A stretch of DNA of 64,000 bases, taken from Tachypleus tridentatus (lineage: Eukaryota > Arthropoda > Merostomata > Xiphosura > Limulidae). The notes beneath the pieces were generated by a model, which made no database searches, was not told the DNA's origin, and worked only from the letters and a program-made list of their open reading frames with translations. The stretch's first letter is position 1; every line of letters starts with the position of its first letter. Location of the stretch: positions 140,649,009 through 140,713,008 of the forward strand of contig NC_134834.1 in the NCBI RefSeq assembly GCF_004210375.1, in the 5' to 3' direction. Shown one piece after another: positions 10,558-55,600 of this stretch. The position numbers and the translations under genes were made by a program.

Positions 10558-11096
10558 AATATATCCATCTTCTGTATGGTTTGAATAAATAAATATATCC
10601 ATCTTCTGTATGGTTTGAATAAATAAATATATCCATCTTCTGTATGGTTTGAATAAATAAATATATCCATCTTCTGTATGGTTTGAATAAATAAATATAT
10701 CCATCTTCTGTATGGTTTGAATAAATAAATATATCCATCTTCTGTATGGTTTGAATAAATAAATATATCCATCTTCTGTATGGTTTGAATAAATAAATAT
10801 ATCCATCTTCTGTATGGTTTGAATAAATAAATATATCCATCTTCTGTATGGTTTGAATAAATAAATATATCCATCTTCTGTATGGTTTGAATAAATAAAT
10901 ATATCCATCTTCTGTATGGTTTGAATAAATAAATATATCCATCTTCTGTATGGTTTGAATAAATAAATATATCCATCTTCTGTATGGTTTGAATAAATAA
11001 ATATATCCATCTTCTGTATGGTTTGAATAAATAAATATATCCATCTTCTGTATGGTTTGAATAAATAAATATATCCATCTTCTGTATGGTTTGAAT
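10558..11096. repeat. Minisatellite, 34-bp unit, 16 copies
   Basis: The core TCTGTATGGT recurs exactly every 34 bases from 10571 to 11081, sixteen times, and the internal copies are identical as far as I can see. The unit also contains TTGAATAAATAAATATATCC. Both outer edges lack part of the unit. Because 34 is not a multiple of three and the minus strand has no stop in the unit, all three minus frames stay open across the array; I do not regard these as genes. Confidence 0.95.
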
Positions 11097-12144
11097 ATGC
11101 TAAATGTTGTTTATAAATGCGGATGTTTAAATGTGAATGGACGAATATTGTCGAGGGTTTGACTTTCTCTAGCGCTTATGTATTGGTCTTTGAATCCATC
11201 GTTCTCCATTGTTAAAGTCCTTTCATTCGCATATACATGTAATTGTGCTATATGAATTTATAGACCTATGATTCTGATACAGAAAATTAGACGAGATCTG
11301 CAAGTCATTTGTGAAAAAGGAAAATTCTTTACACAAAGTTCACACGTTTTACAAAAGGGAGAGCACACATCTCCAGCTGCCTCACACACACATTGGTTTT
11401 GTTAAGGAAATGCAAGTAAACAGATCCCGCTTAAATAGTTTACATGTTTAACTGTTTTAAATTAAACTTGTGTATGCGATTAAGTTAACATTATGTCTCA
11501 AGATGTAATTGCCTCGTTGTTGCATGTTTCAGTGTAGTTTACGAAACAGGTTCAGAACGTGTTTATGCAAGTTAAATACAAGGGATTGAATTTGAGATTA
11601 GATAAAGGTTAAACAAAACTTAAGTTCTGTTCACAGCAAAGCTGAAGTGCTACACGAGTAGGTGTAAAGGGAATAGAATAAGGAATAAGTTCAGTTTGAA
11701 TAGAATTATTAAAATAGTCAGTTTATTTGTTAAAAGCATGTATACAAAATTACAAATGAAAACTAAGTAAACTTATAAAAAGATTAACAGTTAATTATAA
11801 ATGACCTCTTCAAAAGAAATTAAAGTTAAACGATAAAGTAATCAAATAAATGAAATAAGTCTTTAAGACCAGTGTATCTTAAAGCGTGGTGGTACTGTGG
11901 AACCTGCAAGATACCAGAAGAGAATTGTTCAGAATTACATTTAGTTAAACAATGAAAGTCAGAGCGAAAGTTAAAATAATGATTTGATTAGTATAAAACT
12001 AAGTAAGTAAAGACCAATCATTTTGCATAACGAATTTTCCTATACAGGAATAAAAAACAAACTTTAGTATTAAGATTTCAGGTCACAAAATTTAGAAGTG
12101 AACACAAAAGTTAAGATAGTTAACCAGGATATTTGTGCAAAATG
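11097..12144 (-). other. Downstream flank / probable 3' UTR of the EAR-repeat gene
   Basis: This AT-rich stretch follows the TAA at 12145-12147 of the minus-strand gene. A minus-strand AATAAA lies at 11727-11722, about 420 bases past the stop, and is a reasonable polyadenylation signal. No other coding signal was seen. Confidence 0.4.
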
Positions 12145-15075
12145 TTACGTAAAATTGAAGTATGGTGCGAAGGCGACTAATATACCTTTCATTTTTGCTT
12201 TCAGAATAGTTGAACTTAAGGCAAGTTCTCCTTGAGCTATTGCCACATATAGCTCATCTTTGGCAACAAAGGGTTTTACATCCCTTACATCTTCTCTCAC
12301 CAACATGGTTGTTGAAACAAAACCCCTTTCTCCTAAATTGAAAATCAGAAAAATAAATCACGGATTGAAAATGGTATGTACAAGTAAGAGAATATTCGTG
12401 GTTAAAACGTTTTACACAAGAAATAGGGTGATGCTGCTAAATGTAATAGAAACTAAACCATAGTAATAGAAGCCATATTAGGTGAAAATTTACTAGATGT
12501 GGATCGATTTATTTTTAGAACGTAGTATTCGACTAAACCGATAGTAGAGGATTATAGATCGGGGAATTTAAGACTTTAAACCCGTAAGAGATGAACTAAA
12601 ACAAAAAAATTTTGTTCTACGCAAGTACCACGTACTGTTACACTGCATTGATTCACAACCTGATAGTTAATACAATGTATTTACTAGAAATAAATTTAAC
12701 TGAAGTAATGTAATTATTAAAGTAGGGATAGTTATACTACTACTGTAGTAGTCAGAGTTCACCCTTACACTTGTTTAAGTGCTTGAGACGTAACTTCCTC
12801 TACGGAAGGAGAGGACATTATTCATTTGGAATGTTAGTCTATTTAAATTTGCTACAAGTCTGCACGTTTGATAATAGCTTTAAAAACTAAGATTTTAATC
12901 AAGCTCAGATCTTCCTGGTGGAAAGATCTTACTCTGGTGGTAAAACCAAATGGTCTATCCATTTCGACTTCCCTTCCCACCATCCCACCGCGCCGATACG
13001 CTTTTAATAAGACACCACATAAAAAGTTAAATTTAAAGAATTAAGCTCTAAAAAGATGTAGAAAGAAATAAGATTCATTTGTAATCTAATATGTAGCTAT
13101 GTTTTACAAGTATGCCAAAGTACTATTTTCCAAAGTACTATTTTATAAAGGAGGGCATTTGATGCTATAGTTCAAAAACTTACCTTGAAGATGATAAAAT
13201 TCTACTCCAGTTGAGTTTGAAATAATCATGTAAAGCTCTTGAAGACTACCCAGCTCAAAAACTTCTAGAGAAGTAGGATTATTAAAGGATATTTTCTGGT
13301 AGAGCCGGAAAGAGGTTTCAAGGTAATTGAAAGTGCGATAGACCTATAGGAGAAATATCTTCTATTTGAAATAAATCTTAAAGAAATACTTAAAAAGTTC
13401 AATCATTTTAAAAACACTGGTCTTAGAAGTTGAGAACGGGACACCAACCTGTACAGAGTTGGTTTCTAGAGCTTCGTGAACAGGAGCAACATTGGTAAAG
13501 ACCAGGTAGTGCTTTGCACCGTATTCGAAGTACACCACATCGTTACTAGCTGGTGCTGCTATCTCTTGAACTAGTTCAAGATTTCCGTTGCGTAGCTTCA
13601 ACAAGAGAGATGATCCTTGGGTGTACAGTGAAGGAAACTTTCTCGCAACTGCTACGTGAACCTCTTTCTTATGCAGAAGAAACCCAGCAATAGCTGTTGC
13701 TTCTACGTTTGGGAAGCAACGGGAGTAATTACGTATGCATATAGAAAAGAATATGTTAATGAAGTTTAAATTTATCTAAAAAAATGCAATTATAAACTTC
13801 GTCACGTTTGAAGTAAGAATGATTATTTAAGAATCAACTAAATATATACTATGTCTAATACATTAAAGTTGTGCAAGATTACATTAGGCAAGAGATTTAT
13901 TCATTGCTGCATACGAGATCAGATTAAGTACAAATTGAAAAAAGGTGTATACACGATATACAAAAGTGTTTTGAGTTAAGTTATCGTTCGATAACTAGCA
14001 AAGTGGTTAAATAGTGTAAAGCTTTTAATTTAAAGCTTAGTTTAGAAGTATTTGAAATCCGTTAACAATACTTCTGATACGGGATTCTATTAAGGCTTTT
14101 AAATTTCACTTATGGCCCGACAGAACATTAAAGCGTTGAGACACTACAGCGAGACTTTGTAAGCGAATTTTGTGCCCCGAGTACCTATGCCAAAGTTACA
14201 TAATTGATGAATTATTGTTGTATTGCTAGAAACCAAAGAAAAGTGGACATTCTTTATCCCTGCGGAAAACGACGTAGGGTTTCCCGAAGTACAAAGAGAT
14301 ATTGAAGTGAGATACTATATTATTCTGGCAATAGGAAGATTGCTTATGTTTAGAATACTAGTTCGAAGTTTCCGAAAACCGATAAGTTGCGTTTAAAAAA
14401 CTCAAAAGTTACGAGGTTATTTTAATTAAACTGTCATACATTAAGACATTAAAGTTACCTTTCCCGATATGTACAGAAGTCACTTCTGTTAGTAATGACT
14501 TATAACCATGATTTCCGAATACGTAAATCGTACAGGTACCTTCCACATCTAAGACAATTATGTTGCAGTGATATTCGTCTCTGTTTATTACAGAGACGTC
14601 CAATATACCTTGCCCAAGTGAGGCCACAGGTTGTTCCATTTCCATAATGGTAGTGTCTGAAAATAAGATAAATTTACGTTACCGTAAAGTTAAATTTTAA
14701 GATGCATTACTTTTCTAATGCTTTATTTCACAGGAATAGTAATTAGTATTGAATAGTAATTAGTATTTTCCGAAATACGTAAACTTTATATGCAAGTATA
14801 CATACCAACTGCAGAGTGGGCAGCAGCCACGTAGATTATAAAAACACGTTGGAGAATCAGGACAGGAACTCTACGTATTGTAGTTGTTGTAGCTATTGAA
14901 TCAAGGTAGAGTAACTTAGAATGTTCAAGTACAAACGTGTAAGTACTTCCGTAATAGCTGTTCCTTGGCATCTTAACAATGTTAAAGTCAGTCGCCTCTG
15001 GAAGAATATCCAGAAAGTCTCCCGTGACGTTGAGTGAAGCATAGAAAACGAATTTATCTAGCTGGTACAACGAAT
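12145..15075 (-). CDS. Exons 22-26 of the EAR gene: C-terminal EAR-like module
   Basis: The last five exons encode about residues 1671-2026. EAR-like units are clear: NLELVQEIAAPASNDVVYFE followed by AKHYLVFTN in exon 24, FRLYQKISFNNPTSLEVFE followed by ELYMIISNSTG in exon 25, and VKPFVAKDELYVAIAQG in exon 26; exons 22 and 23 hold weaker ones. Exon 26 reads to TAA at 12147-12145. An alternative is a further splice at a GTATAT site within exon 26, near 12191, to an exon I did not find; the clean overall frame makes the stop the simpler reading. Confidence 0.7.
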
Positions 15076-18000
15076 CTAAAAAGATAAAAACAAGTAAGAC
15101 CATTAAACAAAATCTTATGTAAAGCTATATGAAAAACTTCCATTTAAAAAGAAGCAAGCTTTAGTTTAGCGAACTTAGAAGATAGGTAAGTTATACCTTC
15201 CAGTATATCCCACAAGTAGTCTCCAATGTACCGCTGTATGCTCGTCTCTTTCAAGATATCTTGAGTTTCAGCTGTAAAGCTGATATCAAAACTAACTACC
15301 GATTTGTCTAACTTATCCAGATCAATGTGGTCCACTTCTCTTCCAACAAGTAGGTCCTTTTGAACTAATACTTCGGAAAGGAAAAATTCCTTTAAAACTT
15401 CTTGGGTGGTATCCAGATAGACAGCTTCTTCTATTAGCACCCGAACGTCAATCTTGTTTATCAGTCCTTAATGTAGAGCATAATGAATTAAAGTAATTTA
15501 CAATTCTGTGCCTCAATTTTAGGAGTTATTCAAATAAAGTACGATAAATTGAGCTTGCAATGGAAAATGGTACATCTTGTATAAAAGGCATACAGTACTA
15601 ACATTGTTCGTTAAAAGCACAAGATGCTAGGTAAGCGTCAAAATTTTAAAAAAAAGTTAATTTGTAATCAGAGGAAAGTTTTAACCATAAAAACAGAATG
15701 TACTTACCCTGGACGTAGAGGTTTCGAGATTTAACGCCACCGGAGAATTTTAATTCGCCAGATATTACGTTTTCAGAGTGCAGGTTTACGGTTTCTCTTA
15801 TACTGATATTGTTCACTCTAGATAAATGCAAGTCTTTCTCGCATAGAAGGTTACCCTGGTACAAAATAACTCGCTGTTTACAAAACAAATTTGGCATCGA
15901 CATAAAAGCGTACAAAGATTAAATTTTAGAGTTAAATTTTACCATCACTTGTGAGCAATTTTAAAATTATACTTACCTTTATCATCTTATAACCACTCAT
16001 GATCTGATTTCCAGTTGTTATTAGAGTATTACCGAGATGTTCCTTTAAAAGGAGAGAGTTCACCCTTTGGGTAACAGTTATGTGGTCTTTGAAGAGTACC
16101 ATGGTAAAGCTCTTTTCACCGTAAATAAGCTGGATATCACCCTCTAGATAGGTTTGAAAATCCAGCTTAGAATAAATGAATTAGAAAATAAATAAGCAAA
16201 TAGGGTATGCTTAATATCGTAACATTAGATTGTTTCGGATGAAAAAGAAATCTATGTAGTAATTTACTAAAATAGTCTGTAAACGAGGTTTATAAGGCAT
16301 TCTGCACTAACCTGTTCTGTTTACAGTAATAGCTCCTACAGACAAGTCTATATTGTTTATAGGACCGTAGATGGTAATAGTGCCATCAATATCTACGAAG
16401 TTAATAAAAATCTTCACATCTGAAAATAAAATCATGAAGTTACGTTAAAGAAAAGCTATTTAAAAACTATTAAAAACTAGGCAGCGACTTAAACTATTAA
16501 CGACTTAAAATTTAGAAGTCAAATTGGCAACCATAAATTAAGTTTAGCAAATTTCACAAGTTTTCCTTTAAACACCAAAACCCCTTAATACCGGCAGTTT
16601 TAAAGTTAACAGATTAGTATTGTCTATTCAGTTGTTAAACTGAACAAATGCAGAGTTAAGTGCGCTATTAAAAACTTAGTTACCTTCAATCTTTTGTGGT
16701 TTATCAACAAAAACTGCTTCTTTGGCAAGTCGGGCAATATCAGTACCATCTATGGTAGAAACAATAGGAGGACCTAAAACTTTAAGGTTGTTAAGTATCA
16801 CCACTTCTTCATTGAAGGTTTTAGAGGTTGGAATATTCTAGGAGGAAAAAGATAATTGTAAATAACATTTATGGAAAATAAGTAGAAATTAAAAATAAGT
16901 AGAAATTAAAAGAATAAAAAAGACAGAAGTTAACTAACTTGATCTCCAGTTATCCAGATCAAATCCGCTACGAAGTGTTCCATATATACGTTGTTCACCA
17001 CATTAGTGGTGAAGTTACGTTCTACAAAAACGTCGTTAGAAATACTCTTAAGGATTGTTATATGGTCTTTTTCATTAACCAAAATGGCTTCCGTCTGCAG
17101 CAGAGAGAAATTTATCCCATTTACTAAGTTCGAAACGGACAACTCCTTTATTTCCACTTCTACAAATACTAAATTTCCAAGTAATTTGTTATTGAGGTCC
17201 AGTTTCATTGTCATAGCACTCAAGTAAGAGACATCTATGCCATTTATTAGTCCTGATGTCAGGAGGTCTGAAGATAAGCCTAGTCCATGCTCAAATATGA
17301 ACACACCTGGAACGATATTAGTTTGTACGAAGAGTTAAAAAACAAGTAATGATGATATTTATATGCAAGGATAGAGGAAAATTTTGTAGAAAGAAATATT
17401 CAAGTTACGTTATACTTCAAATTTTAGATAATGTGGAAGTAATTTTTTAGATAATGAAGTAATTTTTTAAATGCAAGTAGTTGTTCAACTCAAAAAACAC
17501 TTTTGTAAATAATCATTGGAAAAATTATCGCTTCTTACGAAAACAGAAAATTTGAATTAAGCCTACTTTAATGAAGTAGGCGAAGTTTAATATTTTAGTT
17601 ATAGGTCAGTTTCTTCATTTTAGAGCGAAATGTTTGATGCAAGAATCATTGCAAAATTTTACTTACCTGTAAGTATTTGTGGAGCAGTTAGAGTAAGTAG
17701 CTTTTCAGGAAGATAAACACCGTTCACAAGTGCAGCATTAATATCTCCGTCTATTTGAAGTAAACTTTCGAAACGTACCGGTTGTGTTAGTATGTGATGA
17801 CCTTCTATCATCACAGAGTCTTCTACCAACTGAGCAATATTAATACTGCTTACACGTTCCTGTAGAACGAGATCCTCAGCCACTGATAAGACGTTCACGA
17901 ATATAAAGTATCCAGATAAAATATGATCTTCGTTCAGATGAATAGCATTTGAATTAACCCAATTTAGTCTAATAGTAGAGACTCCTTCACTTGTTCCAAT

Positions 18001-21000
18001 GTCCCCAAAAATTGAAATTTGACCTTCGAAAATAAGGTTTTCATTTTGAATACTCAAATAAATATATTTAGGATTAAAGTACTCACTACTGTACAGATGC
18101 GAGTTACTAAGAGTTATTTATATTATCGCGTAAAGTAGAAGTTTTGTAATTCACATTACGTACACAATTTAAAGGAAGCTTATGATGCAAGTAGTTTATG
18201 GCTTTACACTACAGTAATGTACAATCGCCTTTATTCTTTAGTAACAGTGTTGAAAACATTAACTTAATACTTTAACACTGATTATATAATACTTGCAGCA
18301 TTCATTCTTATTTCAGGTTTAAGCTATAAAAAGATAAAGTAAATATATTTAAAAAAAACCAAAAAACTTACTTTCGAAGCTCTTCTCAAATACTGTTTGA
18401 GGTTTACTGAGAGACATAACGCTTCCCGAAAGTTTAGTAAAATTAAAGTCGTTCACTCTATCAGCTTCTATTAGGACAGCGTCGTTATCACTGAAGATAA
18501 GTTCGACCAAAATATTCTGGTTAGAAGAAATTGTTATTCTTCGTCGAGCAAGTTCCGTCAAGTCAACTGCATCAAGTGTTGTTGCTACTTCAACATCACT
18601 CCTTATTCTCATCTCTCGAGTCAAAAGAGATGGCTTTTTATTTCTATTACCTACTAAGTTCGGCTTAAATATTTTCGTTTCAACTTCTTGGGGAAGAGAA
18701 ACCACGACAGCATTTTGTAGAATGACACCATCTACCGTTCCTGCTGTAGCATTTTCGACGAAAAGAATCTCAAAGAAGTTAAGGGGACCTTGTATTGTAC
18801 TCGAAGAACTGCGGGAAATTCGTTCCGTCTCCAAGAGTGCCAAGTCTACTTGGTCTATGATACTTAGACCTGTAAAAGAAAGTTTAAAAAAAAACATTCA
18901 TTTTTAAGAGAAAACATTAGCATGAAGGAAAATTAACTGCTAGTAAGACAGAAGGTATGAGCACACAAAAGAGTTTGTTGGTGTAAAAAGAAATTTGTTT
19001 GCTTACCACTTTGTAGATCTAAGAAAGAGGTCTCGTCAAGGAATTTTGTACCTAAAGTAAAAAGATTTGTTAGAAAGACAATACACTATTTAAAAACAAA
19101 TCTTAATTTACGTGATAAACGGTTCGAGATAAGTTGTTACGTAACTAAATATAGAAAGAAAAAACTTACCTCTTAACACTTGGTTGCCCCTAGTAAGCAT
19201 AAAATCTTCCATCCTTAGGCCATTAATAGTATCAATTGTAGAAGAACGAACCGTTAAAGCATTAAAGACCTTACGTGAATAAATATCCACCACGTTAGTT
19301 TTAAAAATGGCATCGCGATATGTCCTTTTAACATCTAATTCGTTAATTTTCTTCTGAACATCCATGTTTCGCTCCACAGTGACTCCAGCTAGGAAAGTTG
19401 TTTTCCCACTTAAGTGAGAGTCACTCTTTATTAAAAGAGTTATATTAGAAATGTCCACATTATCAACAAATCTTCCAATTATTACATCTTCATCTACTCC
19501 TATTCCTCGAGCAAATACTTTATCATACAAAGAATCTTCTAGCGTTAGAGTCACCAAGTCCGAAGTACGTATCTGGTCAACTAAACCACTAATGTAAGTT
19601 TTAGTAACTGACACATAACCATGGAAAGTTTTAATAGCAGTTAGATTTTGAAAGCTATTTAAATTAAAGAGGTCGTTCGGCAGATTTAATCTGTCCACCG
19701 TTCCTTTAATAGAAAGTCTATCGATAGCAGAGAAATTGTCCTCGAATGTCTTTTTTCCTAAAATAGAGGTTGGTTTGTCTATTCTTAGAATATTAGCTCC
19801 TAGTGCATTTAATTTTATATTATTAAATACGCCAGTTATTGTAACATCCTGCACTCGTATATCCTGACTAAATTCTTTAGTGAAGATTATTTGGGTTGAA
19901 TTTTCAGTAAGAGAGAAACGCTTCATTTCTTTGACATCGATCCCATCTATTAATTTAACGGTTAGATTTTCGTAGATGTGTATACTATCCTTCATAATTT
20001 TGTGTGCCTTTATTTTATGCTTTTTGTGCAGCGTTACCAACTCCTCAGATAGATCTACATTGTTTACTCTCCCAGAAATGTGTAGAGAATTTTCTATAAT
20101 CATAGGTCTTCTCATGTAGTAGTAAGCTACAACGAAAAAGAAATGTTCATAATGTTAGAATAGTGTAAATACAGTTTAACATTTTTAATTATAGCATTTT
20201 ACTTAATATGGGAATCATAATTGAAAACAAGTTAATTTAACAAATTTGTGCTAGATTAAGAAACGAACTACCTGTCGAATCTTGATCTTTGTCTGTAGCC
20301 ATAATATGTTGATCCAGGTCAAAGTTATTTACACAACAGCCTACATCAACCGACTCTTTTACTGTTACTGGCAATACGAAAGTTACTTCACCATTTATAA
20401 GAAGTGGGTTGTCAGAGCTGAAAAGAAATTATGTTAAGTGTTTTAGTACATCGCAATATGTACAAGTTTTGTTGAGAATGGATATGGAAGTTAAATACAA
20501 CAACAAATTCAAATGATACTATACCGATAGGTAGAACCTTGTAGGTTTATCAGGTCAGTTGCAGCTATGTTTTCCACATCTAAAACCAAAGCTTCTAACG
20601 ACGAACCTTCTGCAGCACGTATACGGTTTGTTCCAGTCATCACAGTAGATTGATCTAAAAGAGCAACGTCTGAAAGAGACGTATTTATGTTAAAGAAAAT
20701 TAAACGTTTTGATATGGCTTTCAAAAACAGTTTAAGTTAGTTCGACAAAACACTGATGATTTAAAATATTTATGGCTTATGAGACGAAAGCTTCGTATGA
20801 ATAAAATCAAGGTTTAAGTTGCATTGGGAATAACTTACTTACCTTGTAGACCAAAAATAACATCTTCTAGGTTTTGCTCAACATTATTCAGTTTTAAGTT
20901 AAGCGAATTAATCGTCCATTTGAAGTCGTCTAAAGTAAAGTGCGATCCTTCCAAGGATAGACTTTCTAACATCTTCAGAGCACCAATGCTTTTTTGCAAG

Positions 21001-24000
21001 ACATTCATTGTATGGAAAACTTGATGTTTAAAAATCAAAGAAGAATCTGTGACAGCGTGCTCCAAGACTAATGATAAATGTTCAACATTTATCATGTATT
21101 CTTCAAACCGACCCTATGAAAAAGGTTAGTAAAAATCGAGATTACGACCACTACGTTAGGACAAAAACAATCGTAAAGGAGATAACATAATGTTAAACTA
21201 ATTTACAAAGTTATTGCATACTTCATATAAGATTTAAAAAGTTAAGGGAGATTCTTATATTAACTGATATTGAATACAAGACTGAGAGTAACGTTTACCT
21301 GAATATGCTTTATTAAATTTTCCAGTTCTCTTACTCTATTAAGGAGTGGATCAGGTAGAGGCTTAAGACTAGCATTCAGAGCAAAAAGCCGCGGTCCTGT
21401 TCTTCTGTCTACGGACAGAAGATAAGTAGTTTTATTGTAGATGAAAGAAGCGATACTACCAGGCAGTAGGATGATATCCTTAGGAAAGCTCTCTATTACT
21501 AAGAAAAGGAATTAAAGCAAGTTTTAAAAGTTGTAAAAAATACTTGTAACGATAATGATAGAATTCAAAAGAAATATTGCAATTTCAGATAAATACAGGT
21601 TACTTACTCTGGGGAGGAGCTAAGAGTAGTTTTTGGTCCCGACTATGCCATGATAGTAAAGATATGGAGTTTGGCATCGTATCTTGGAATAGAAGAGCCA
21701 CAATATCATGTCTACATGAAGATAAAGGTGCTGTATGAAAATGAATTGCGTTTGGAAACTTCAATAGCTGCTTTCTGTGGAATTTTCCATTTCGCCATAC
21801 TAACAAGTATTGTTCGTAGGATGCGATAATACCAAAGAAGTGTTCGAAGCTGACACGAAAGCTATGTAGATCACGGATAGAGTCTAAATGTAATCTACAA
21901 AGAGAAAAGTTTCTGCTCTTGTAAAGTGTTAAAGAATGCTTGCAGTAAGTTAATTTACTATGCTTGTTCTAGGAAAAGGAAGTTAAATTGCTAACTATTT
22001 ACTTTCTGGCGAAGCGAAATTGTTAAAATCACTTACGTTTCTATCTCTGTATGGGATTGTAGAAACCAGTCTAGTTTGAAAATAAGACATGTGGATGAGT
22101 TGGCGACAGCGACGTAACCTAGTCCGTTTATAACAAAAGTTTCCAAGTCTACTGGATTAGGTAGCCAGATTTTAATGATGTTCTTCCAGCAACCAATACC
22201 TTTAAAATAGAGAGAACTTTACACAAGTTTCTGTAATAGTAGAAGTTCGGTTAAAATAGGAAAGGTAATGCTATGCAGAACCATCAGGAGCAAATTCTTA
22301 AATTTTGATTCATAAGTTGAAGTAAAAAAAAAAAAAAAGTTAATTTTACAAATTAAAGTAAATTGATGAAGTAAATATTAGATAACGGACAGGACAAAAA
22401 TAAGCTTACCATTCTCAATATATTTTACGTTGAAGCCAGATGAAGAGTGGTAGAGTAGGATAATAGAACTATCGAACCTTGTTGAAACGTAATCAACTTT
22501 AGTAGGGGTATCGTCCAAGTTAAGTAGCATGGCCTAGAAAGTTAAGAGTAAAATAGCGTTAAATATTTCACATCTTTGAATTAAGAGGATTAAAATAATT
22601 TGACTTCAGTGTTAAAGGAAACAAGTAAGAGAATGGAAAAAATATTTTCCAACTGAAACGTTGATAGATAAGAATGTTGTGTTAAAAAGATATTAGTATG
22701 AATATGAGAACTGTATTAAAAAGGTACTAATAAAAGGTTCTTATTGTAGTAAAGGTAATCTGCGAGTATTATTAAAACATGCAAACTATACATTTTGTAT
22801 AATGTTTATACAAAGTTTAAACTTTCTATAACCAAGGATAACTACTTTAGTAGTAGTGCCATAAGTTACATTTGGAGATAAGTAAAAGCCATCAACTTAC
22901 TATGGCTCCAACTTTTTCCTTGGATCATGTGTAAGGACGGTAGACTTTTGTAACAAAATTCCCCGTTGAAAGTTAGTTTTATTCTAAGTAAACAAGTTAT
23001 CTAAAAGATTCACCTACCTGGTTTGAGTATCCGTTTACTACCTGGTACACGATCAAACGTGAAGCGTATTCAGAAGCTTCCAGAATGACTACAGCTAACA
23101 TTTGTAACTGTTCGTAGGTTTTACCGAAAGTTATAGAATCAATGATAATAGCTGAAATTAAAAGAGTTCCCATAAATATTTCGGTTGGGAACATCATTTA
23201 AGTAGTAAAGTCTAAAGTGACTTAAAGATTGAGTAAGTGGATACAAGACATTCACGGTCCATGTGTAGCGAATTAAAAAACTTACAGCACGAGGTTAAAA
23301 TTGTACGTTGAAAAAACTTCTCACGAATAAAGACGATGTATTAAGGAATCTCTTATCGTATAGTAATTTTAGTCATTAAATAAGTTACAAAAAGTTCATG
23401 CTTAGAGACATTTAAGAATTTACCGTTGTTAGTCGTATACGTGAACATAGCCGTTGATGTTTCTAACTTCATCCAGTTTTCTACAGGATGAATTTGCCAC
23501 ATAAAAGCATTCTTGTTTCCAACGGAGAGTAAAAAGTCAGAGTTATTAAAACGAATGTAGCGCCATAGTTTTGGAGAAGAGTTCGTCCAAAATCTTTTCT
23601 CGTAGATATTTTGTATTAAGAGATCTAGAAAAAAAAAAAATTGTATAAGCTGTGTAGCTTACATTATGTAGTTTACGTTTTCTTAAAAGAAAATTTAGAT
23701 GAAATAATTTCATTAGTGGTCGCGTTAAAGCCGGTATAGGATGTAGGATACTTAGAAATAAGTTATCAGTTGTGGATGAGCTTTGTTAAACAATATTCAT
23801 TTTAGAACAAGAAGTCTCAATTCGTCTGGTGAGCATTCTCGCTGAAGGAAGTGAAAGTATTCGATAAAAGTATTGTATTCTCACGAGACATCCAATACAT
23901 TAGAAGATAATGCCCATCTTTAAAATTTGTTACGGAAAAGGTAACAAGTTGCATTAAGAGATTATAGAAGTTTGAGAGTGTGGCGTAAGTAGAATTATTA

Positions 24001-24716
24001 GGGCTTAAGTTAAATAATCATAAAAAGTGCTATGCATTTGAGAGTATTAGTATTAAGAACGTGTGATGTACGTACCCTTTAACAAAGTAAAGATTCGAGA
24101 AAGTAACCTACAAGATCTCGTCAGATGAGAGATTACTTATGCTTACACAAAAAGGAATAAGCAAAAGATAACAAGAGGGTATATTAATACTGGCCTGTAA
24201 GATAATACTTTAAGTTTTAAAGTTCACCTTCTCTATTGTTATAGCCCGTGTCTGGAGTAAAGCCATGAAAAAACTTAGGGGTTTTTTCAGCTTCTGGAAG
24301 ATCGTCGTAAAGAGAGAGATCATTTTCTCTAGCAAAGTACTGACGAGTCATATCCAAGACCACGGAATCAATAGTATCAGTAAAAAGACGATCATGGCGA
24401 TAGCTTGGAGGCTAGTAAAAGACAAGCCTAGTTTTAGTTAAACAGGCATTACACTTAAAATACAAGCAACTAAGAAGAGTAACTTAAACATTAAAAATAT
24501 AATTAACTAACTATATAAATCATACACGATTTTACGTTACGAAATATACTCTAACAAATAGTTAACATGAATCTTAAAGACAAGCAAAAAACTATTAGTT
24601 TAAGCAATTAGACGATGTTTCATAAATTAAGAATAACAAATAATACTAACCACATCTTCCGATCGTAAAGGCCGCCCTATCCATAACAACAAAATAAGAT
24701 AGGTTACCACCCACAT
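12145..24716 (-). CDS. Secreted EAR-repeat / 40-residue-repeat protein, 26 exons, 2,026 aa
   Basis: Exons in gene order: 24716-24651, 24411-24228, 23624-23424, 23151-23018, 22533-22410, 22199-22037, 21894-21608, 21498-21299, 21113-20843, 20669-20525, 20417-20272, 20126-19170, 19051-19007, 18869-18372, 18023-17667, 17306-16939, 16837-16684, 16419-16312, 16143-15977, 15873-15708, 15466-15197, 15075-14806, 14656-14459, 13702-13449, 13343-13184, 12332-12145. All introns are GT-AG, phases agree throughout, and the total is 6,081 nt ending in TAA. The start is the first ATG, opening a hydrophobic signal peptide (MWVVTYLILLLWIG). Order: EAR-like repeats (about 80-450), helical linker (about 430-560), about 26 repeats of ~40 residues (about 570-1670), EAR-like repeats (about 1672-2010). 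Acceptors of exons 15, 19, 21 and 24 were chosen by phase and repeat alignment. Function is unknown; the layout suggests extracellular protein binding. Insect eggshell/Torso-pathway proteins (Nasrat, polehole, closca) are of similar size and worth comparing, but I cannot show homology. Confidence 0.85.
15197..20669 (-). CDS. Exons 10-21 of the EAR gene: about 26 repeats of ~40 residues
   Basis: The motif [LVIT]-[VI]-[ND]-x-[IVL]-[DNKR]-[LVIF] recurs every 39-44 residues: RVNNVDL, LIDGIDV, VFNNIKL, TVDRLNL, LVDQIRT, FVDNVDI, KINELDV, TINGLRM, IIDQVDL, TVDGVIL, TLDAVDL, LVNGVYL, LINGIDV, LVNGINF, VVNNVYM, PINNIDL, RVNNISI, LINKIDV, EVDHIDL and others. Between them runs a pattern like L......I.G...F...I.V..L.I.G. 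I count about 26 units. The alternating hydrophobic spacing suggests a beta-rich solenoid. Most introns here are phase 1 and fall at the same place in the unit, just after the I.G or KxF strand, as expected of growth by exon duplication. Confidence 0.75.
20843..21113 (-). CDS. Exon 9 of the EAR gene: helical linker
   Basis: The end of exon 8 (LLNRVRELENLIKHIQ) and exon 9 form a run of about 120 residues with few prolines and regular Leu/Ile/Met spacing (for example VLQKSIGALKMLESL and LKLNNVEQNLEDVIFGLQ), typical of an alpha-helical or short coiled-coil segment. It separates the N-terminal EAR module from the repeat region. No known domain is recognised in it. Confidence 0.6.
21299..24411 (-). 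CDS. Exons 2-8 of the EAR gene: N-terminal EAR-like module
   Basis: Exons 2 to 8 encode about residues 23-453. Several segments match the EAR/EPTP pattern (a hydrophobic strand, then Y-L-x-V-A/S-N-like, then a W/F-rich strand): SDFLLSVGNKNAFMWQIHP in exon 3, DLETFVINGLGYVAVANSS in exon 6, EQYLLVWRNGKFHRKQLLKF in exon 7 and TTYLLSVDRRTGPRLFALN in exon 8. EAR repeats fold as a beta-propeller in TSPEAR, LGI and Vlgr-type proteins, usually seven blades. I count four clear and perhaps three weak units, so a propeller is plausible but not proven. Confidence 0.65.
24651..24716 (-). CDS. Exon 1 of the EAR gene: start codon and signal peptide
   Basis: The ATG at 24716-24714 opens 22 codons: a short start, a run of hydrophobic residues (VVTYLILLLWIG) and then charged residues. 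This is a normal eukaryotic signal peptide, so the protein should enter the secretory pathway. The exon ends at a GTTAGT donor in phase 0. Confidence 0.75.
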
Positions 24717-29394: not shown

Positions 29395-29900
29395 CTTCTC
29401 GCAGGAAAAACCTAGATAAGTATGTGGGCATGATATCAGAAGATGTCATGGGCTATAACACTTTAAAAATTGCCTTCCTGAAATGCTATAAACGCACCAA
29501 GGGATCCTTTTACTGAACGTTCAGTAAAGACAAACATAAAACTAGATAAATTGCATTTCATTTTGTGGAATATTTACCTTGATACTTCACAAGGTAGGCT
29601 AATATGGGAAAGTATGAAGATAGTTTTGAAGGACTGGCAGATCCAGTTATACGAAAACAGTTCATGATCACGTGCTTAACTAAATGTTACTGTTCCTAAA
29701 GGAGAGAATATTGAAAGACGGGGGCGAGATAATCAAACTGTCAGAACAATATATGGGAGCCCAAATAATAGGCAATTCTAAGACTAGTTGGTCGAAGTTG
29801 AAACCACGGATCACTGACCAGAAACAAAATGTTATCAAATGTGACAAGAAGTTAACACGAAAATGGAAAAAAGAGATGCTATGCTTCTTATAAAAGGGGT
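29395..29900 (+). pseudogene. Decayed LTR-retrotransposon gag (SCAN-like capsid) fragment
   Basis: The plus-strand translation, with one or two frame changes, reads KIAFLKCYKRTKGSFY, then IAFHFVEYLP, YEDSFEGLADPVIRKQFMIT and finally FLKERILKDGGEIIKLSEQY. This matches the gag of a group of invertebrate Gypsy-type elements with a SCAN-like capsid (usual form: LLKRYxLxxxGFRxKF, then QFxxRLxxYxxRW, then L.VREQF...C...L..FLRER.P....E...LAEQY). Stops occur near 29515 and 29695. No pol or LTR was seen nearby; the 3' end has been turned into the tandem array that follows. Confidence 0.65.
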
Positions 29901-30870
29901 TGAAAGTCTGTCACCAAGAAACAACAGTAGAAATAACCTCAATATAAGACAACTGGATCTACTCATAAATATGGTGTTGGCAAAAACCAAAACAAGAAAC
30001 AGAATGCTATCGAATGTGACAAGAAGTTAACACGGAAATGGAAAAGAGATGCTATGCTTCTTATAAAAGGGGTTGAAAGGCTGTCACCAAGAAACAACAG
30101 TAGAAATAACCTCAATATAAGACAACTGGATCTACTCATAAATATGGTGTTGGCAAAAACCAAAACAAGAAACAGAATGCTATCGAATGTGACAAGAAGT
30201 TAACACGGAAATGGAAAAGAGATGCTATGCTTCTTATAAAAGGGGTTGAAAGGCTGTCACCAAGAAACAACAGTAGAAATAACCTCAATATAAGACAACT
30301 GGATCTACTCATAAATATGGTGTTGGCAAAAACCAAAACAAGAAACAGAATGCTATCGAATGTGACAAGAAGTTAACACGGAAATGGAAAAAGAGATGCT
30401 ATGCTTCTTATAAAAGGGGTTGAAAGGCTGTCACCAAGAAACAACAGTAGAAATAACCTCAATATAAGACAACTGGATCTACTCATAAATATGGTGTTGG
30501 CAAAAACCAAAACAAGAAACAGAATGCTATCGAATGTGACAAGAAGTTAACACGGAAATGGAAAAAGAGATGCTATGCTTCTTATAAAAGGGGTTGAAAG
30601 GCTGTCACCAAGAAACAACAGTAGAAATAACCTCAATATAAGACAGCTGGATCTACTCATAAATATGGTGTTGGCAAAAACCAAAACAAGAAACAGAATG
30701 CTATCGAATGTGACAAGAAGTTAACACGGAAATGGAAAAAGAGATGCTATGCTTCTTACAAAAGGGGTTGAAAGGCTGTCACCAAGAAACAACAGTAGAA
30801 ATAACCTCAATATAAGACAGCTGGATCTACTCAAAAACATGTTGTTGGCAAGAACCAAAAAAAAATAAGG
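29815..30870. repeat. Tandem array, ~173-bp unit, about six copies
   Basis: The block GTGACAAGAAGTTAACACG starts at 29841, 30016, 30189, 30362, 30536 and 30710, giving spacings of 175, 173, 173, 174 and 174. Internal copies are almost identical; the first is the most different and continues the gag frame, so the array grew from gag sequence. The last copy breaks down at about 30835-30870. Confidence 0.93.
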
Positions 30871-40808: not shown

Positions 40809-42905
40809 ATGGCATCAAGAAGCTGCAAGCATTCTCCAGACGCATTCTGCTATGCATGTGGCCAACGTATCAAGACAAAAGCGAAAAAGTATTCTGTGAC
40901 AGCATCTGTTAAAATGCGTGAAGCCTATAAAGCATATTTCGGCATACCTGTCGGGAATAAAGACAAATCCTGACACCTCATTTTACCTGCAAGCACTGCA
41001 AAAAACTCTAGAAGGTAAGACGGAAGATCTTTGCTTGCATGAATAATAAGATTTTATATTATAAAAATTTTAGATTTTTTAAAATTTAAATATTTTTTTT
41101 AATTTCCAAGAGCATAGAAAAAATAACACGTATAAAATATTTTCCATGAACCTCTTGCACATTAGTTGTGGATGAAATAAATTAAATAAATAATTACTAA
41201 ATGAAAAAAGAGAGCCATGAAGTTCGCTATTCCAAAAATTTGGGGCCCGTCATGGCCAAGCGTGTTAAGGTGTGCGACTCGTAATATGAGGGTCGCGGGT
41301 TCGCATCCCCGTCGCGCCAAAATGCTCGCCCTCCCAGCCGTGGGGGCGTTATAATGTGACGGTCAATCCCACTATTCGTTAGCGAAAGAGTAGCCCAAGA
41401 GTTGGCGGTGGGTGGTGATGACTAGCTGCCTTCCCTCTAGTCTTACACTACTAAATTAGGGACGGCTAGCACAGATAGCCCTCGAGTAACTTTGTGCAAA
41501 ATTCAAAAAAGAAACAAACAAACATTTCAAGAATTTGGAGTAAACCAACTGACTACTCAAGCATTTGCTACTTCTGCATGGTGGACCCTTCGAAATTTGT
41601 GGCTGGCAAAAATATATTTGCTATCATGTATCCGGACCTTCCATCGTCCATCGCTCCAATGCCACACTGCCCTGAGCTCCCTGTACCCACTCCACCAGAG
41701 AGAAAGCAGCCATCCTCAGAAGAGGAGGTAGACGTTGAAGATCCAGATTACAATTTCAGAGGTGTAGCTGGTGAGAGAAACCTATACCACCTCAACCAAA
41801 GAGACCTCAATGATTTGATCACAGATCTTGGTCTAATAAAGTCGAATGCCGAGCTTTCTACATATATGCTCAAGGAGTGGAATTTGTTAGATGAAAGTGT
41901 GCAAGTCACAGGTCAGAGGAAGCGTCACCGACATTTTTCAAGCTTCTTCATTCGTCAAGATGGGCTCTGCTTCTGCCACAATGTATTCGGTCTGTGCAAG
42001 GCAATTGGAATTGTCTGTAACCCGAACGAGTGGCGCCTCTTCATTGATAGTTTATCCAGAAGCCTCAAAGCTGTGCTGCTCCATAAAGGGAATAAGTATC
42101 CGTCTCTTTCCCTAGCTTATTCGGTGCATCTCAGAGAGGAATACAACAGCGTGAAGACCTTGCTAGAAGCCTTGAAGTATGATGAGTATGGCTGGAAGGT
42201 TATCGGAGACTTCAAAATGGTGGTATTCCTGATGGGTCTCCAAGAAGGCTTTACCAAGTTTTCCTGTTACTTTTTGCCTTTTGAACAGCAGGGACACTGC
42301 AGCGCACTACAGCAGGAAGCACTGGCCACAACGGACCGAGTTCTCTGTTGGGAGGCACAATGTCAAGTGTGAGCCACTAGTAGACCTTCAGAAGGTGTTG
42401 TTTCCACCATTGCACATAAAATTGGGTTCTATGAAACAGTTTCTCACAACTCTTGATAAGGAGTCTGCAGTCTTCAAGTACCTTCAAGACTTCTTCCCTA
42501 AGCTGTCTGAGGCAAAGGTCAAAGCTGGTGTCTTCATTGGATCACAAATAAAGAAGATCCTGGATTGCACAGAATTCCTTAAGAAGCTCAGTAAGGAGGA
42601 AAAAAGCTTGGGGGAGTTGTCGCAGTTGTTCTTGGCTCCTTGGCCAATCATAAGGCCGAAAGTTATGTGGAACTGGTTGAGGCTCTGGTAAAGAACCACG
42701 GCAAAATGGATTGCAGAATGTCCCTGAAAGCTCATATCCTTGACGTTCATCTTGATAAATTCAAGGAGATCATGAAAACATACTCAGAGGAGTAAGGCGA
42801 GCGCTTTCACTAAAATATACTGGACTTTGAACGCCGCTACCAAGAAGCGTATAGTGAAAACATGAAGGGAGACTATATTTGGGCGCTGATACGTGAAAGT
42901 GATTT
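40809..42905 (+). pseudogene. Broken transposon-type gene of a dispersed arthropod family
   Basis: The ATG at 40809 starts a protein like a family I know as repeated uncharacterised ORFs in chelicerate and crustacean genomes. Readable blocks: MASRSCKHSPDAFCYACGQ and AYKAYFGIPVGNKDKS (40809-40960), AMKFAIPKIW (41214-41243), then after the SINE DYSSICYFCMVDPSKF, MYPDLPSSIAPMPHCPELPV, LNQRDLNDLITDLGLIKSNA, NPNEWRLFIDSLSRSLKAVL and, after a frameshift near 42285, VLFPPLHIKLGSMKQF and FPKLSEAKVKAGVFIGSQI, with a shifted tail to about 42905. Damage seen: a one-base loss near 40970, a SINE at 41244-41524, frameshifts near 42285 and 42630 and a stop near 42795. About 200 bp from 41015 begins GTAAGA and may be an intron. 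The CxxC and CYFC motifs suggest metal binding; the catalytic role is unknown to me. Confidence 0.7.
41244..41524 (+). mobile_element. Thr-tRNA-derived SINE inserted in a coding sequence
   Basis: Full-length copy: head GGCCCGTCATGGCCAAGCG, anticodon-like CTCGTAA, B box GGTTCGCATCCCCG, standard body and a tail ending AAACAAACAAACA. It is flanked by a 14-bp target-site duplication, TTCCAAAAATTTGG at 41230-41243 and TTTCAAGAATTTGG at 41525-41538 (two differences). The host codons line up on either side of it. Confidence 0.92.
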
Positions 42906-49657: not shown

Positions 49658-50649
49658 CACCTTTGTGCAAATTAATTGAAACAAATGGTCATTTTACAAT
49701 GTTTTCAGCATGGCAGCCGGTGTAGGCTCGCTGGACCCTCTGATTTCCTTTAATAATCATTTTCTCACACAGACGGCATCATTAGCTGTGTTTTGCAGTA
49801 TGGTCGATCTATTTTTGGGATATATGACGAAATTTTGAGGAATATTACGTCATTCGAAATTGCGTTAGAATGGCAAGGAGACCAGATAAAAAACAACTAC
49901 TTACCAACTCAATGAAGAAAAAACAGTATCAATGGGGTCTGAAATACAAAAATTAGACACAAGAACAATGGAGGATGGTGTTATTCGGTGACGAGACTCA
50001 ATTCTTCGTACAGTGTCAAAGAAGTCTGCATGTTTGCAGATTTCCAGGTGAGAAACTTCGAGAATCGCACATCAATCAGTTCGTAAAACATCCCTTGAAG
50101 AAGATGTTTTGGAGTTTTTTCAGCTACTATGGCGTCGGAGGCTTACATATCGTAGAAGGTATGATGCGAGGACCACAGTACATCGAAGTTTTGCAGAGAA
50201 TAGTAGTTCCAGAATTGAAAAAGAGATTTCCAGATGGATCTGGCATTTTTCAGCAAAATCTGGTCCGTGCCAGTCATCGAAACTTGTGAGGAAGTTTATA
50301 ACTACAACGCGAATAAAGGTACTGGACTGGCCTGGAAACTCTTCGGACTTAAATCCTACTGAAAATCTTTGGACGATTTGTAAAGAAAGACTTCGAGGAA
50401 AAGACTGTACTACGAAAGATAAGGTAATTGAGCCCATAATTGAGGTGTGGTACTGCGATCCAAAAATTAGTAAAGATTGCAGTCAACTCGTGGACTCAAT
50501 GCCAAAGCAGATTAATGATCTTCTGAAAAATAAAGGCGGTCATATCATGTATTAATTTGTGACTAATTTTTGGATTCTCAGAAATAAAACACAAAAAATT
50601 GAAAAAATCGTAATTTCCCGTTTTGTTTCAATTAATTTGCAAAAGGGTG
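49658..50649 (+). mobile_element. Tc1/mariner-type DNA transposon, defective
   Basis: The ends are inverted repeats of about 28 bp sharing the exact run CAAATTAATTGAAACAAA (49668-49685 and its complement at 50622-50640), flanked by TA dinucleotides at 49656-49657 and 50650-50651. The internal transposase is broken and the whole is about 990 bp, shorter than a full Tc1 element (about 1.3-1.7 kb), because the 5' coding part is deleted. Confidence 0.88.
49915..50555 (+). pseudogene. Tc1-type transposase remnant (DDE)
   Basis: The translation keeps FGDETQFF (first catalytic Asp) followed by KMFWSFFSYYGVGGLHIVEG, then after a frameshift near 50260 VLDWPGNSSDLNPTENLW, the standard C-terminal block with the last catalytic acid (Glu of ENLW). 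The middle block (usually QQDNAPCH) reads QQN and then shifts frame, so the second Asp is lost. Upstream, WGLKYKN followed by a stop is the end of the DNA-binding part; the helix-turn-helix region is missing. Confidence 0.85.
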
Positions 50650-52300: not shown

Positions 52301-52661
52301 AAACCATGTATACTTTTGAAGCTATATTACATACCATTTAGATTATGTACTTTTTAATGGAATATTTAAACATGAGGCTTGTTTGACCACTATTACAGTA
52401 TAGTTTAAGATATTAGACTGTTTATTACTTGTGTAAATGTTTTCCAAACATTTTTTAATTTATATATTTTCTTTTAGTTTTCTGGAAGATATGCTGGTCT
52501 CTACCACTTCAACTATTTATAAATATATTGGATCTCCAGTTTGAAATACTAGGGTAATGAAAGAGGCTGTTAACTATTCTTTGGAGCAGAAGTTTGATTT
52601 TTATTTTACTTTTTTCAATAGAATTCATAAAGAGAATATCAGAATAATTTTTATTCTTGCT

Positions 52662-55600
52662 ATGGAAACAAACCATGACTTTGATGTACCCATAAGTGCA
52701 AGTATTTTGGATCAAGAGTCATTAGCTGATCAGTCTGAATTGGAGGACTTAGTAGTTGCAGATCCAACAGTATTGAACTTTCAGGAAGAACAAACAACTT
52801 CTACATTAGTTATTAATGATCAACTAGATCAAACAGTGAAAGCTGGAGGTGTTGCTTCAGATATAGAAAGAAGTCAGTCTCTTATTCCAGGTTCACTTGA
52901 CCTTGGCACTACATTTGAAGATGCTGTTTTTCCAAGGGTCAACTCCTATTCTCACTTTGGCCATATGGAGACAGTATCACTAGAAGTGATAGATGGTACA
53001 GAATTAGAACCTAAAGAAAAATCAGGTGTAACAAATTATGCATGTTATAGGATTGAGAATGAAAATACTGTAACAGACAAAACTGTTGTATTGCCTGCAG
53101 TGAAAGAAACAGGTGTGATCCAAAAAGCAAACAATGAAATAGGCACATTGGTTTCAGAAAAGTCTTCATTCACATGTGATAGTGTTGAAGAGAAGGAAGA
53201 CAGAACTACAGAGAACCAGAGCAAAGAAGATGGTCAAAACTTAACTGCATCTGTTTTGGACGATGTTGATAAGCATAGTATTCAACCCCAAATTATATTT
53301 CAGGTAAATCAACAGGCTTGAATTAAGGTTATTAACATATGAGCAGATTATCTTTCTAATTCTTATCTTATCTGATACTCACTCTTATCATTTGTACCAA
53401 AATTGCTCCATTTTTCCATATTTTCCAATCAGAATGATCTAAATGACAAGAGGCTATTTGGCTTATTGGGGTCATCCAACAGAACAACCAACTAAAGCAC
53501 TAAATCTGAGATTTGTGATGTTGATTACCAAGTTTGAGCCTACACACCCCTTTTTCCCTTAAACGTCTGAACATAAACTTGCTGTTATTGCTACTGTTCT
53601 CTATTCTCTGCTTTTTCCCATCTATAACTTGTAGCCTTTTATTTGTCTTTTAACATTTCTGATACTTGTGTGATGTATTTTATTTGTTTTGTGCATTTTC
53701 ATTTGTAAAATATGAAAATGTCACTGCAAAAGAATGTTATTGATTGTTTATTGTAATGTTTTATACGCAATCTGCTGTTGGTTCAAAAACTTAGAAATGA
53801 TGCTTAGACATAGCTCAAAAAACAGAAGAAACAGGCATGAAAATGTTATCTATAGGGAATAAGTTTGTTAGTTTAACTATCAACTGGTTGTATTCTGTGC
53901 AACATCTGTAACTGAGAAACTTATTTAAAAATAATTTTAGTACTGTGTTTCTAGCTGTTTACGTATACAGTACATATCAATTATCTTTTGCCGTTGTACT
54001 TAAGGACAAAAAATATACGTTGTAATTTAAAACACTTTGATGCATCTATTTTCAGTTACTATCTTTAGAAGGCTTTGAGTATTAGAAAAATGACTACATA
54101 ATATCTATACTAAAAGTACAGAATTTCTTTTATGCTTGCCACTTTAACATACATTCTTCTAGCTAAAGAATGAATACCTGTGCATGTTGTTACATAACGT
54201 GGTTAAATAAGTGAAAATCTTACCCCTAAGGTATTTTGTAACGTAGTGCAAAGTTTGTAATGGAACTAAATTTTTAAAAGTAGCTTCAGAGAATAGGGGC
54301 ACATGTTTTGAATAAGAAATACAATCAATGTTTTGTTTAATTTCACCTGTTTGAAGTTTCGTTACATTTGATGTGAGCTGTAAAAAGTGATCACATCTGT
54401 AATCTGTAAGCCAGCAAAAAAATTAGATAAAAATAATGCAATGAAATGCAAAGCTTCCAGGGGTATAATCCCTCATCCTAAACTCCTAGATTAGTTTCTG
54501 ACCAGATGAATTGTGTTGATTAAATGTAAAGGAAAAACATAGTCAAAATTATGAAGCAAATCATTCTTCAAGTATATAAGGACAACAATAATAATTCAGT
54601 CAAAAAACCATACCTGTATTTAAGCTATCAAAGCTTAAATTGAAAACCAATTTCATTCTTTAAAGATACTTGATTTAGGTGTTTACAAATTTAAAACTTG
54701 GATGATCAGCCTGTGTGAAAATAACCTTTTTCAGGTTGAAAATCCAACATTTTCATAAGAAGGATTCAGAACTCTATTTACATTTTTTTTTCTTTGACAT
54801 GGGTAAATATGCAGTTGACAGTTTCTGTTGTATTAATAACAAATCTTTCTTTCAAAATATAAGCCTATTCTGACACAAACGTTTCCTCCAAAACTCCCTG
54901 CAATTAAAAATACCAAAAATATTTCATTACAACAGTACTAACTTCTATTTATGTTAGTCTACATTTTTTCTTCCACGTATTTATATGAATTGTATCAGCA
55001 GTGGATGTGTTATAACTCTGATTTTTATTGAGAAAAGACAAAATTTGGACTATGATAGTTATGTTATGATTATCAATAACAGATTTAAAATTTACAGTGG
55101 TTATAGACATCACACCACATTTGGTTCTTTTTTACATCATTCTGTGTGATTTTATTGCATTAATTTTATAATGGTTTTTTCTCTGTATCCTTTATAGAAA
55201 TAGCTATTTCTAACTAATTTTGGGGCATACATTATGAAATTTATAATGGTTTTTATACTGGGTTATGTTTTTGAGATATTATATCACTGTCTTGATACTC
55301 GTGTATCATGTAGCTTGCTATTATTTTTAGGTTTTTACCAAAGAAAAATAAATTAATAAAGTTATTACAAAGAAGGATTTCAAAGGTGTTAAAAGTGGAA
55401 TTTTTGAGATTTTCACTTGAATACTGAGTCACTTATGCACTTGATTACCCAGCAGTAATCCAACTACCCTTGTAGTTTCTTCATTCTTTTAATACCTTTG
55501 TGAAAATATTTACTATGCTCATCTGACAAACCACCAAGATTTTCTGGGGAAAACTCTAAATGACTATGCAAAAAATGTATTTTTAATGACATTCATGCAC

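Follow-up and report, generated by a model that had tools for sequence, protein, structure and literature searches.

The 64,000-nucleotide stretch of Tachypleus tridentatus DNA analysed here (the window) carries on its minus strand, at 24716..12145, a gene of 26 exons that together, in phase, give a single reading frame of 2,026 codons and a stop. Its introns have GT-AG borders in 25 of 25 cases and measure from 101 to 851 bases, with a median of 173. Most of the gene was recovered by a script that chained exons on splice sites and codon use, and the model was corrected against a diverged paralog, with exon 7 being set as one exon and both borders of the intron between exons 10 and 11 being moved. 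The corrected exon chain is exactly the 26-exon, 2,026-codon model, with the same ends, that had been proposed from the letters alone (the original prediction). Earlier models with 27 to 30 exons were dropped on comparison with the paralog. The first 22 amino acids (aa), MWVVTYLILLLWIGRPLRS, were judged by eye to be a signal peptide, and this inspection of the N-terminus supports the proposal that the protein is secreted. On the grounds of its sequence, the locus holds a genuine gene of 26 exons whose product is large and secreted. The parts of the gene are as follows.

24651..24716, minus strand: exon 1, start codon and signal peptide, aa 1-22; exon 1 of the paralog also has 66 bases
24228..24411, minus strand: exon 2, aa 23-83; paralog comparison
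23424..23624, minus strand: exon 3, aa 84-150, N-terminal EAR-like domain; paralog comparison
23018..23151, minus strand: exon 4, aa 151-195, N-terminal EAR-like domain; paralog comparison
22410..22533, minus strand: exon 5, aa 196-236, N-terminal EAR-like domain; paralog comparison
22037..22199, minus strand: exon 6, aa 237-290, with a weak EPTP match at aa ~252-279 (14.7 bits, below cut-off)
21608..21894, minus strand: exon 7, aa 291-386, N-terminal EAR-like domain; a single exon as in the paralog
21299..21498, minus strand: exon 8, aa 387-453, end of the N-terminal domain and start of the putative helical linker
20843..21113, minus strand: exon 9, aa 454-543, putative helical linker; heptad windows at aa 440-467 (exons 8-9) and 511-538
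20525..20669, minus strand: exon 10, aa 544-591, start of the rod; paralog comparison
20272..20417, minus strand: exon 11, aa 592-640, rod; paralog comparison
19170..20126, minus strand: exon 12, aa 641-959, rod, about 8 units
19007..19051, minus strand: exon 13, aa 960-974, rod; paralog comparison
18372..18869, minus strand: exon 14, aa 975-1140, rod; paralog comparison
17667..18023, minus strand: exon 15, aa 1141-1259, rod; paralog comparison
16939..17306, minus strand: exon 16, aa 1260-1382, rod; paralog comparison
16684..16837, minus strand: exon 17, aa 1383-1433, rod; paralog comparison
16312..16419, minus strand: exon 18, aa 1434-1469, rod; paralog comparison
15977..16143, minus strand: exon 19, aa 1470-1525, rod; paralog comparison
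15708..15873, minus strand: exon 20, aa 1526-1580, rod; the paralog exon is 18 bases shorter
15197..15466, minus strand: exon 21, aa 1581-1670, last rod units and junction to the C-terminal domain
14806..15075, minus strand: exon 22, aa 1671-1760, C-terminal EAR domain; paralog comparison
14459..14656, minus strand: exon 23, aa 1761-1826, C-terminal EAR domain; paralog comparison
13449..13702, minus strand: exon 24, aa 1827-1911, C-terminal EAR domain; the surrounding open frame alone scores 21.4 bits with EPTP
13184..13343, minus strand: exon 25, aa 1912-1964, C-terminal EAR domain; paralog comparison
12145..12332, minus strand: exon 26, aa 1965-2026 and stop; best EPTP stretch at aa 1979-2009
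15318..20669, minus strand: the rod, about 26 units of about 41 residues, each with a helix-like part and about five six-residue strand segments

The genome of the window (2.17 Gb in 205 contigs) was searched with exon 12 and then with the repeat rod of the C8 gene as queries, the resulting counts being lower bounds. The loci are labelled by contig: C13a is the close paralog on contig C13, C13b lies on the same contig at 144.4 Mb, and C8, C6 and C2 stand on other contigs. Exon 12 led to C13a, with 58% identity over this exon. The paralog has 26 exons, each equal in length to that of the window gene or off by whole codons, and encodes 2,019 aa, with corrected borders for exons 1 and 4 and a corrected stop. 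The two genes share 59.6% identity over 2,010 aligned codons and differ at the three codon positions by 0.275, 0.173 and 0.415, respectively. By the NG86 method, the nonsynonymous divergence (dN) is 0.256 and the synonymous divergence (dS) 0.930, and with a dN/dS of about 0.28 both have been kept as protein-coding genes; codon divergence of this kind shows purifying selection on the pair.

Further loci were found on C6, C13 (C13b) and C8, so that the family counts five or more loci, which fall into three groups. The original prediction had been unable to name a family; indeed, no Pfam model matches the repeats of the window protein, but the gene is no orphan in its genome. The C13b and C8 models encode 2,232 aa and 2,110 aa, the latter counted from a signal-peptide-like start, and repeat the domain order of the window protein (N-terminal domain, heptad region, repeat rod and C-terminal domain), which is found in part in the partial C6 model. 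The first models of C13a and C8 were trimmed of spurious leading exons, and that of C13a of some inner and trailing ones too, while the C13b model is untrimmed and may include wrong exons, and the C6 model is partial and uncertain, with 1,258 aa used in the repeat counts. Over the whole protein, members of different groups are 16-22% identical, and C6 shares 24% with the window gene or C13a. A FastTree tree of five rows, including the partial C6 and the possibly misjoined C13b, places C6 with the window gene and C13a and sets C8 and C13b apart. A decayed duplicate of the C8 gene lies at C2:118887713-118893876, where the stretches matched to C8 stand in the same order (57-93% identity by stretch) and in-frame stops fall within an exon that stays open in C8.

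Both ends of the protein had been predicted to carry EAR repeats, which are described as forming a seven-bladed propeller (PMC2949613). Against the Pfam EPTP (EAR) model, whose cut-off is 21 bits, the C-terminal end scored well above this value (50.5 bits alone, 51.8 bits in the whole-protein scan), and the open frame around exon 24 reached 21.4 bits by itself; of the blades that a full propeller would have, the Pfam model picks out only some. This half of the claim stands, whereas the N-terminal end remained under the cut-off in the window protein (14.7 bits, E 0.032), although it exceeded it in C13b (40.3 bits); no match was found at the N-termini of C8, C13a and C6. The other C-termini scored 29.1 bits in C13a, 49.4 bits in C8 and 15.1 bits in C13b, with no match in C6. 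Since the N-terminus of C13b is above the cut-off and profiles of the five N-terminal and the five C-terminal domains align with each other in hhalign (probability 85 in global and 59 in local alignment), an N-terminal EAR-type domain is probable, not proven, in the window protein. The Pfam scan of the whole window protein (2,026 aa) yielded nothing besides EPTP at E≤1, including no leucine-rich repeat (LRR), laminin-G-like or seven-transmembrane partner domain. Searches of the N-terminal and C-terminal sequences against the PDB with phmmer gave no meaningful match. A direct search of the genome for PF03736 gave no match, but likewise none in 14 control genomes. Compared with the EAR/EPTP proteins LGI1-4, TSPEAR and ADGRV1, the window protein is alike in its EPTP match above cut-off, here at the C-terminus, and in its secretion (by eye); it differs from them in having no LRR or other partner domain in the Pfam scan, and in combining a long repeat rod with what is probably another EAR domain, at the N-terminus.

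Between the N-terminal domain and the rod, a helical linker had been proposed, and the two best windows of the protein by a home-made heptad score fall there (aa 440-467 and 511-538). The best heptad window sits at this place in all five genes, with a score exceeding the highest of 50 shuffles in the window gene (1.77 against 1.74), C13a (1.83 against 1.81) and C13b (1.84 against 1.70). These scores agree with the proposal and are no more than suggestive of a helical linker.

The rod itself was delimited with a repeat profile whose seed, nine repeats, was taken from C8 and C13b only; in its first round, this profile found 15 units in the window protein. After iteration, 25, 24, 27, 27 and 17 units were found in the window protein, C13a (untrimmed), C8, C13b and C6 (partial), i.e., 120 in total, against 3 units in 100 shuffled sequences. 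As the iterated profile was trained on the same five proteins, the first-round count is the cleaner one. The 25 units of the window protein are spaced by 37-57 residues, and a weaker one, added by eye at aa ~544, brings the number to the approximately 26 repeats of the original prediction. Beyond the linker, 25, 24, 26 and 26 units were found in the window protein, C13a, C8 and C13b, the numbers by span being 25, 25, 26 and 28. The consensus of the profile is INGVDLSELAEDVVLLDGPQTITGEKTFKGDVLVEGNLTVSGTVNGIDL, its final six positions overlapping the following unit. We read the first part of the unit as helix-like. In the column statistics of 79 full units, this part is followed by strands in which hydrophobic residues alternate with glycine or polar ones. 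Besides, the hydrophobicity of the strand columns is autocorrelated at lag 6 in the window protein (0.42, p 0.0026), C8 (0.48, p 0.0012) and C13b (0.43, p 0.003), the p values being obtained by permutation on an alignment fitted to the iterated profile. The long beta-rich rod that had been predicted is supported. When the window protein by itself was compared at successive offsets (aa 421-1640 in an earlier model), the best value, -0.59, stayed within the range of 300 shuffles (mean best -0.65, highest -0.54), so that the repeat period is visible only with a profile. A phmmer search of the exon-12 sequence against the PDB gave no meaningful match.

Profiles built from the units led to the neck of phage receptor-binding proteins. 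Fifty of the 120 units passed 28 bits with near-full coverage, and 41 of them were used in a five-gene profile, the other nine being excluded by hand. Against PDB chain sequences, this profile matched 10 sequences at E values from 9e-6 to 0.0022, the next one being at 0.12; in the reversed-sequence control, the best match was a lactate dehydrogenase at E 0.078. The best matches were two chains named “Major structural protein 1” (5e7t and 5e7f, E 9e-6), which we take to be BppL of phage Tuc2009. Seven sequences of TP901-1-type baseplate receptor-binding proteins, including a chimera, were matched at E ~5e-5, and “orf22” of 9efk at E 0.0022. A 30-unit profile made of 18 window and 12 C13a units, chosen and cut by eye, matched 5e7t/5e7f at E 1e-5 and the seven TP901-1-type sequences at 0.032-0.044. 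In addition, the C8 rod matched the Pfam model BppL_N in three stretches with 28.0 bits (cut-off 25.8) and had one match in PHROGs, phrog_10512, annotated as “virion structural protein” (E 2.8e-6). The stretch matched in TP901-1 is described as the linker after the helix bundle and the beta-prism neck, which is interlaced among three chains and carries a regular six-residue motif; Tuc2009 and TP901-1 are reported to be closely similar in both stem and neck (PMC3893620). Successive beta-prisms have also been predicted in other phage proteins (PMC9437275). The unit is like the lactococcal phage receptor-binding proteins (TP901-1 BPP, 5e7t/5e7f) in that a helix leads into six-residue strands that carry the same motif, the profile match being at E 1e-5. 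Unlike the phage neck, which is single, the window rod has about 26 tandem copies; moreover, the window protein is an animal one, secreted, and no receptor-binding head was found in it. In our reading, the repeat unit and the phage neck would share the same fold logic, whether or not by common descent.

From these observations, we infer that the product of the gene is a secreted subunit of a fibre that is probably trimeric and bears propeller heads; it would be a candidate egg-coat protein, and we give this reading a probability of about 0.5. Each chain would consist of the signal peptide, a probable N-terminal EAR-type propeller, the helical linker, the rod of about 26 units and the C-terminal EAR propeller, and each rod unit would be laid out like the stem and neck of the phage proteins, with a short helix ahead of about five six-residue strands. 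Three chains would join via their linker helices and wind into a single long rigid rod of about 26 prism units, leaving propeller heads at one or both ends free to bind or hold other matrix proteins. The spacing between strands being 4.8 angstrom, the prism parts alone, with about five strands per unit, would extend over an estimated 60 nm or so.

The closest known setting of such a fibre would be the arthropod egg coat, by analogy with the insect proteins Nasrat, Polehole and Closca. In Drosophila, these three are described as a heterotrimeric complex (PMC10576393); they need one another for incorporation into the eggshell, and Torso-like fails to accumulate without them (PMC6303783). RNA interference against each of them in Aedes resulted in an egg viability below 11%, and the mosquito and fly proteins are about 25% identical in the case of Nasrat and Closca and 22% in that of Polehole (PMC10576393). 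One orthologue of each is reported in Nasonia (PMC6777369), while the pea aphid is reported to be without Nasrat and Polehole (PMC3639227). In shrimp, “nasrat” is among the annotated transcripts that are highest in the female gonad (PMC6131155), and a table of ovary-biased transcripts includes a “polehole-like” and a “laminin G domain and EAR repeat-containing” protein (PMC4659196). By their published descriptions, the insect proteins are related secreted coat proteins with three members and low between-species identity. A set of related large secreted paralogs is likewise found here (at least five loci in three groups, secretion being judged by eye), and the reported heterotrimer, the size, the secretion and the divergent paralogs fit the window family, the two being likened by description only. 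In contrast, EAR domains and prism-like repeats are unmentioned in the passages cited here, and the host here is a chelicerate. By this analogy, we regard the window gene as a candidate for a chelicerate counterpart of Nasrat, Polehole and Closca.

Because the three divergent groups have rods of nearly equal length, the fibre could be a heterotrimer; the equal length is compatible with such an assembly and would equally follow from common descent. As a more tentative proposal, Nasrat, Polehole and Closca, and likewise their chelicerate counterparts, might form a heterotrimer of three different paralogous chains, each with about 26 helix-plus-prism units and EAR propellers at both ends, that acts as an egg-coat scaffold of tens of nm and resembles a giant phage tail-fibre neck. 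If true, arthropod proteins known mainly by their mutant phenotype would gain a structural logic, the rod being impossible without every chain, and a heterotrimeric rod would explain the mutual need of the insect proteins, while the propeller heads might serve to bind Torso-like, Nudel or similar partners. It would also mean that an animal matrix protein uses the phage-type interlaced beta-prism in many tandem copies. The ~41-residue repeat profile provides a means to seek the family across arthropods.

Several results weigh against a trimeric egg-coat fibre. Nine of the ten PDB matches belong to one close phage family and hence are not independent, and the neck match spans only 28-36 of the 49 profile positions. 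The C8 rod reaches TP901-1-type proteins only at E 0.6 with phmmer and found none at E 0.01 with tblastn among 50,697 phage records, and the likeness to the neck may hence be due to convergence. The heptad window stays under the highest shuffle in two of the five genes (1.69 against 1.73 in C8, 1.69 against 1.77 in C6), EPTP is above cut-off in only three of five C-termini and one of five N-termini, and a profile of four C-terminal ends had no match in the PDB at E≤10. Regarding the egg coat, nasrat and polehole are listed as not found in a Tachypleus embryo transcriptome (PMC4711587). Moreover, sequence alone cannot separate an interlaced trimer from a single-chain solenoid of similar strand rhythm. 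The latter goes with the bivalent adaptor of the original prediction; the rod would be a beta-solenoid and the protein a monomer with a propeller at each end. The six-residue rhythm with its glycine and asparagine turns is also compatible with a solenoid, to which a weak Bactofilin match may point (E 0.71 in the C8 rod; two of 41 single units, best E 0.066). However, this match scores 10.6 bits in the C8 rod against a cut-off of 27.9 and is not found in the window protein at E≤1, whereas the significant matches are with necks that are trimeric and in which the strands likewise follow a helix, and a solenoid appears rather unlikely to us. The C-terminal EAR domain and the long rod of the proposed adaptor are retained, but since the unit matches a trimeric neck, a three-chain fibre with several heads per end is as likely as the bivalent chain, or likelier.

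The EAR domain would also suit a neural or sensory protein of the LGI, TSPEAR or ADGRV1 type with no part in the egg coat. This is improbable, EPTP being the sole Pfam match of the whole protein at E≤1 and the long repeat rod being, to our knowledge, absent from these families. An artificial joining of exons from separate genes is hardly conceivable, as all 26 exons are conserved in order, strand and phase in C13a, which is 40% diverged, and the domain order recurs in the C13b and C8 models and partly in C6. The gene could also simply be the chelicerate orthologue of one of the insect proteins Nasrat, Polehole and Closca, a new member and no more of a known family whose domains had gone unnamed, and we lean slightly towards accepting this. 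The size, the secretion and the divergence of the paralogs (16-22% between groups) are in line with it, the insect orthologues themselves being only about 22-25% identical between mosquito and fly (PMC10576393), and crustacean relatives are annotated in transcriptomes (PMC4659196, PMC6131155). Against such an orthology, no published link between Nasrat-type and EAR proteins was seen among the papers listed for both, the one of them that contains both terms having them in separate table rows (PMC4659196).

Beside the gene, the window contains at 10558-11097 a perfect 34-base tandem repeat of 15.9 copies, across which three minus-strand frames stay open; the length of its unit is not a multiple of three. 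A 174-base tandem repeat with six copies and 98% matches lies at 29820-30860. On the plus strand, overlapping open frames of 297 and 152 aa at 41479-42691, without a Pfam match above cut-off, give us the impression of being part of a repeated element. Two overlapping plus-strand frames of 110 and 167 aa at 49957-50555 are DDE transposase-like, presumably of the Tc1/mariner type, with DDE_3 scoring 28.4 bits in the second frame (cut-off 28.6) and no match in the first. Further plus-strand open frames at 52545-53321 (258 aa) and 57248-58063 (271 aa) have no Pfam match above cut-off, and the open frames within 52545-58063 are possibly exons of a neighbouring gene. In the mitochondrial contig of 15,008 bases, the two tRNA-Leu genes stand next to each other behind nad1, and no such gene lies between cox1 and cox2; this order would speak against an insect and for an arthropod outside Pancrustacea. 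Elsewhere in the genome, COX1 fragments, most of them with stops, were observed in the large (nuclear) contigs C3, C8, C9 and C13 and are probably nuclear copies of mitochondrial DNA.

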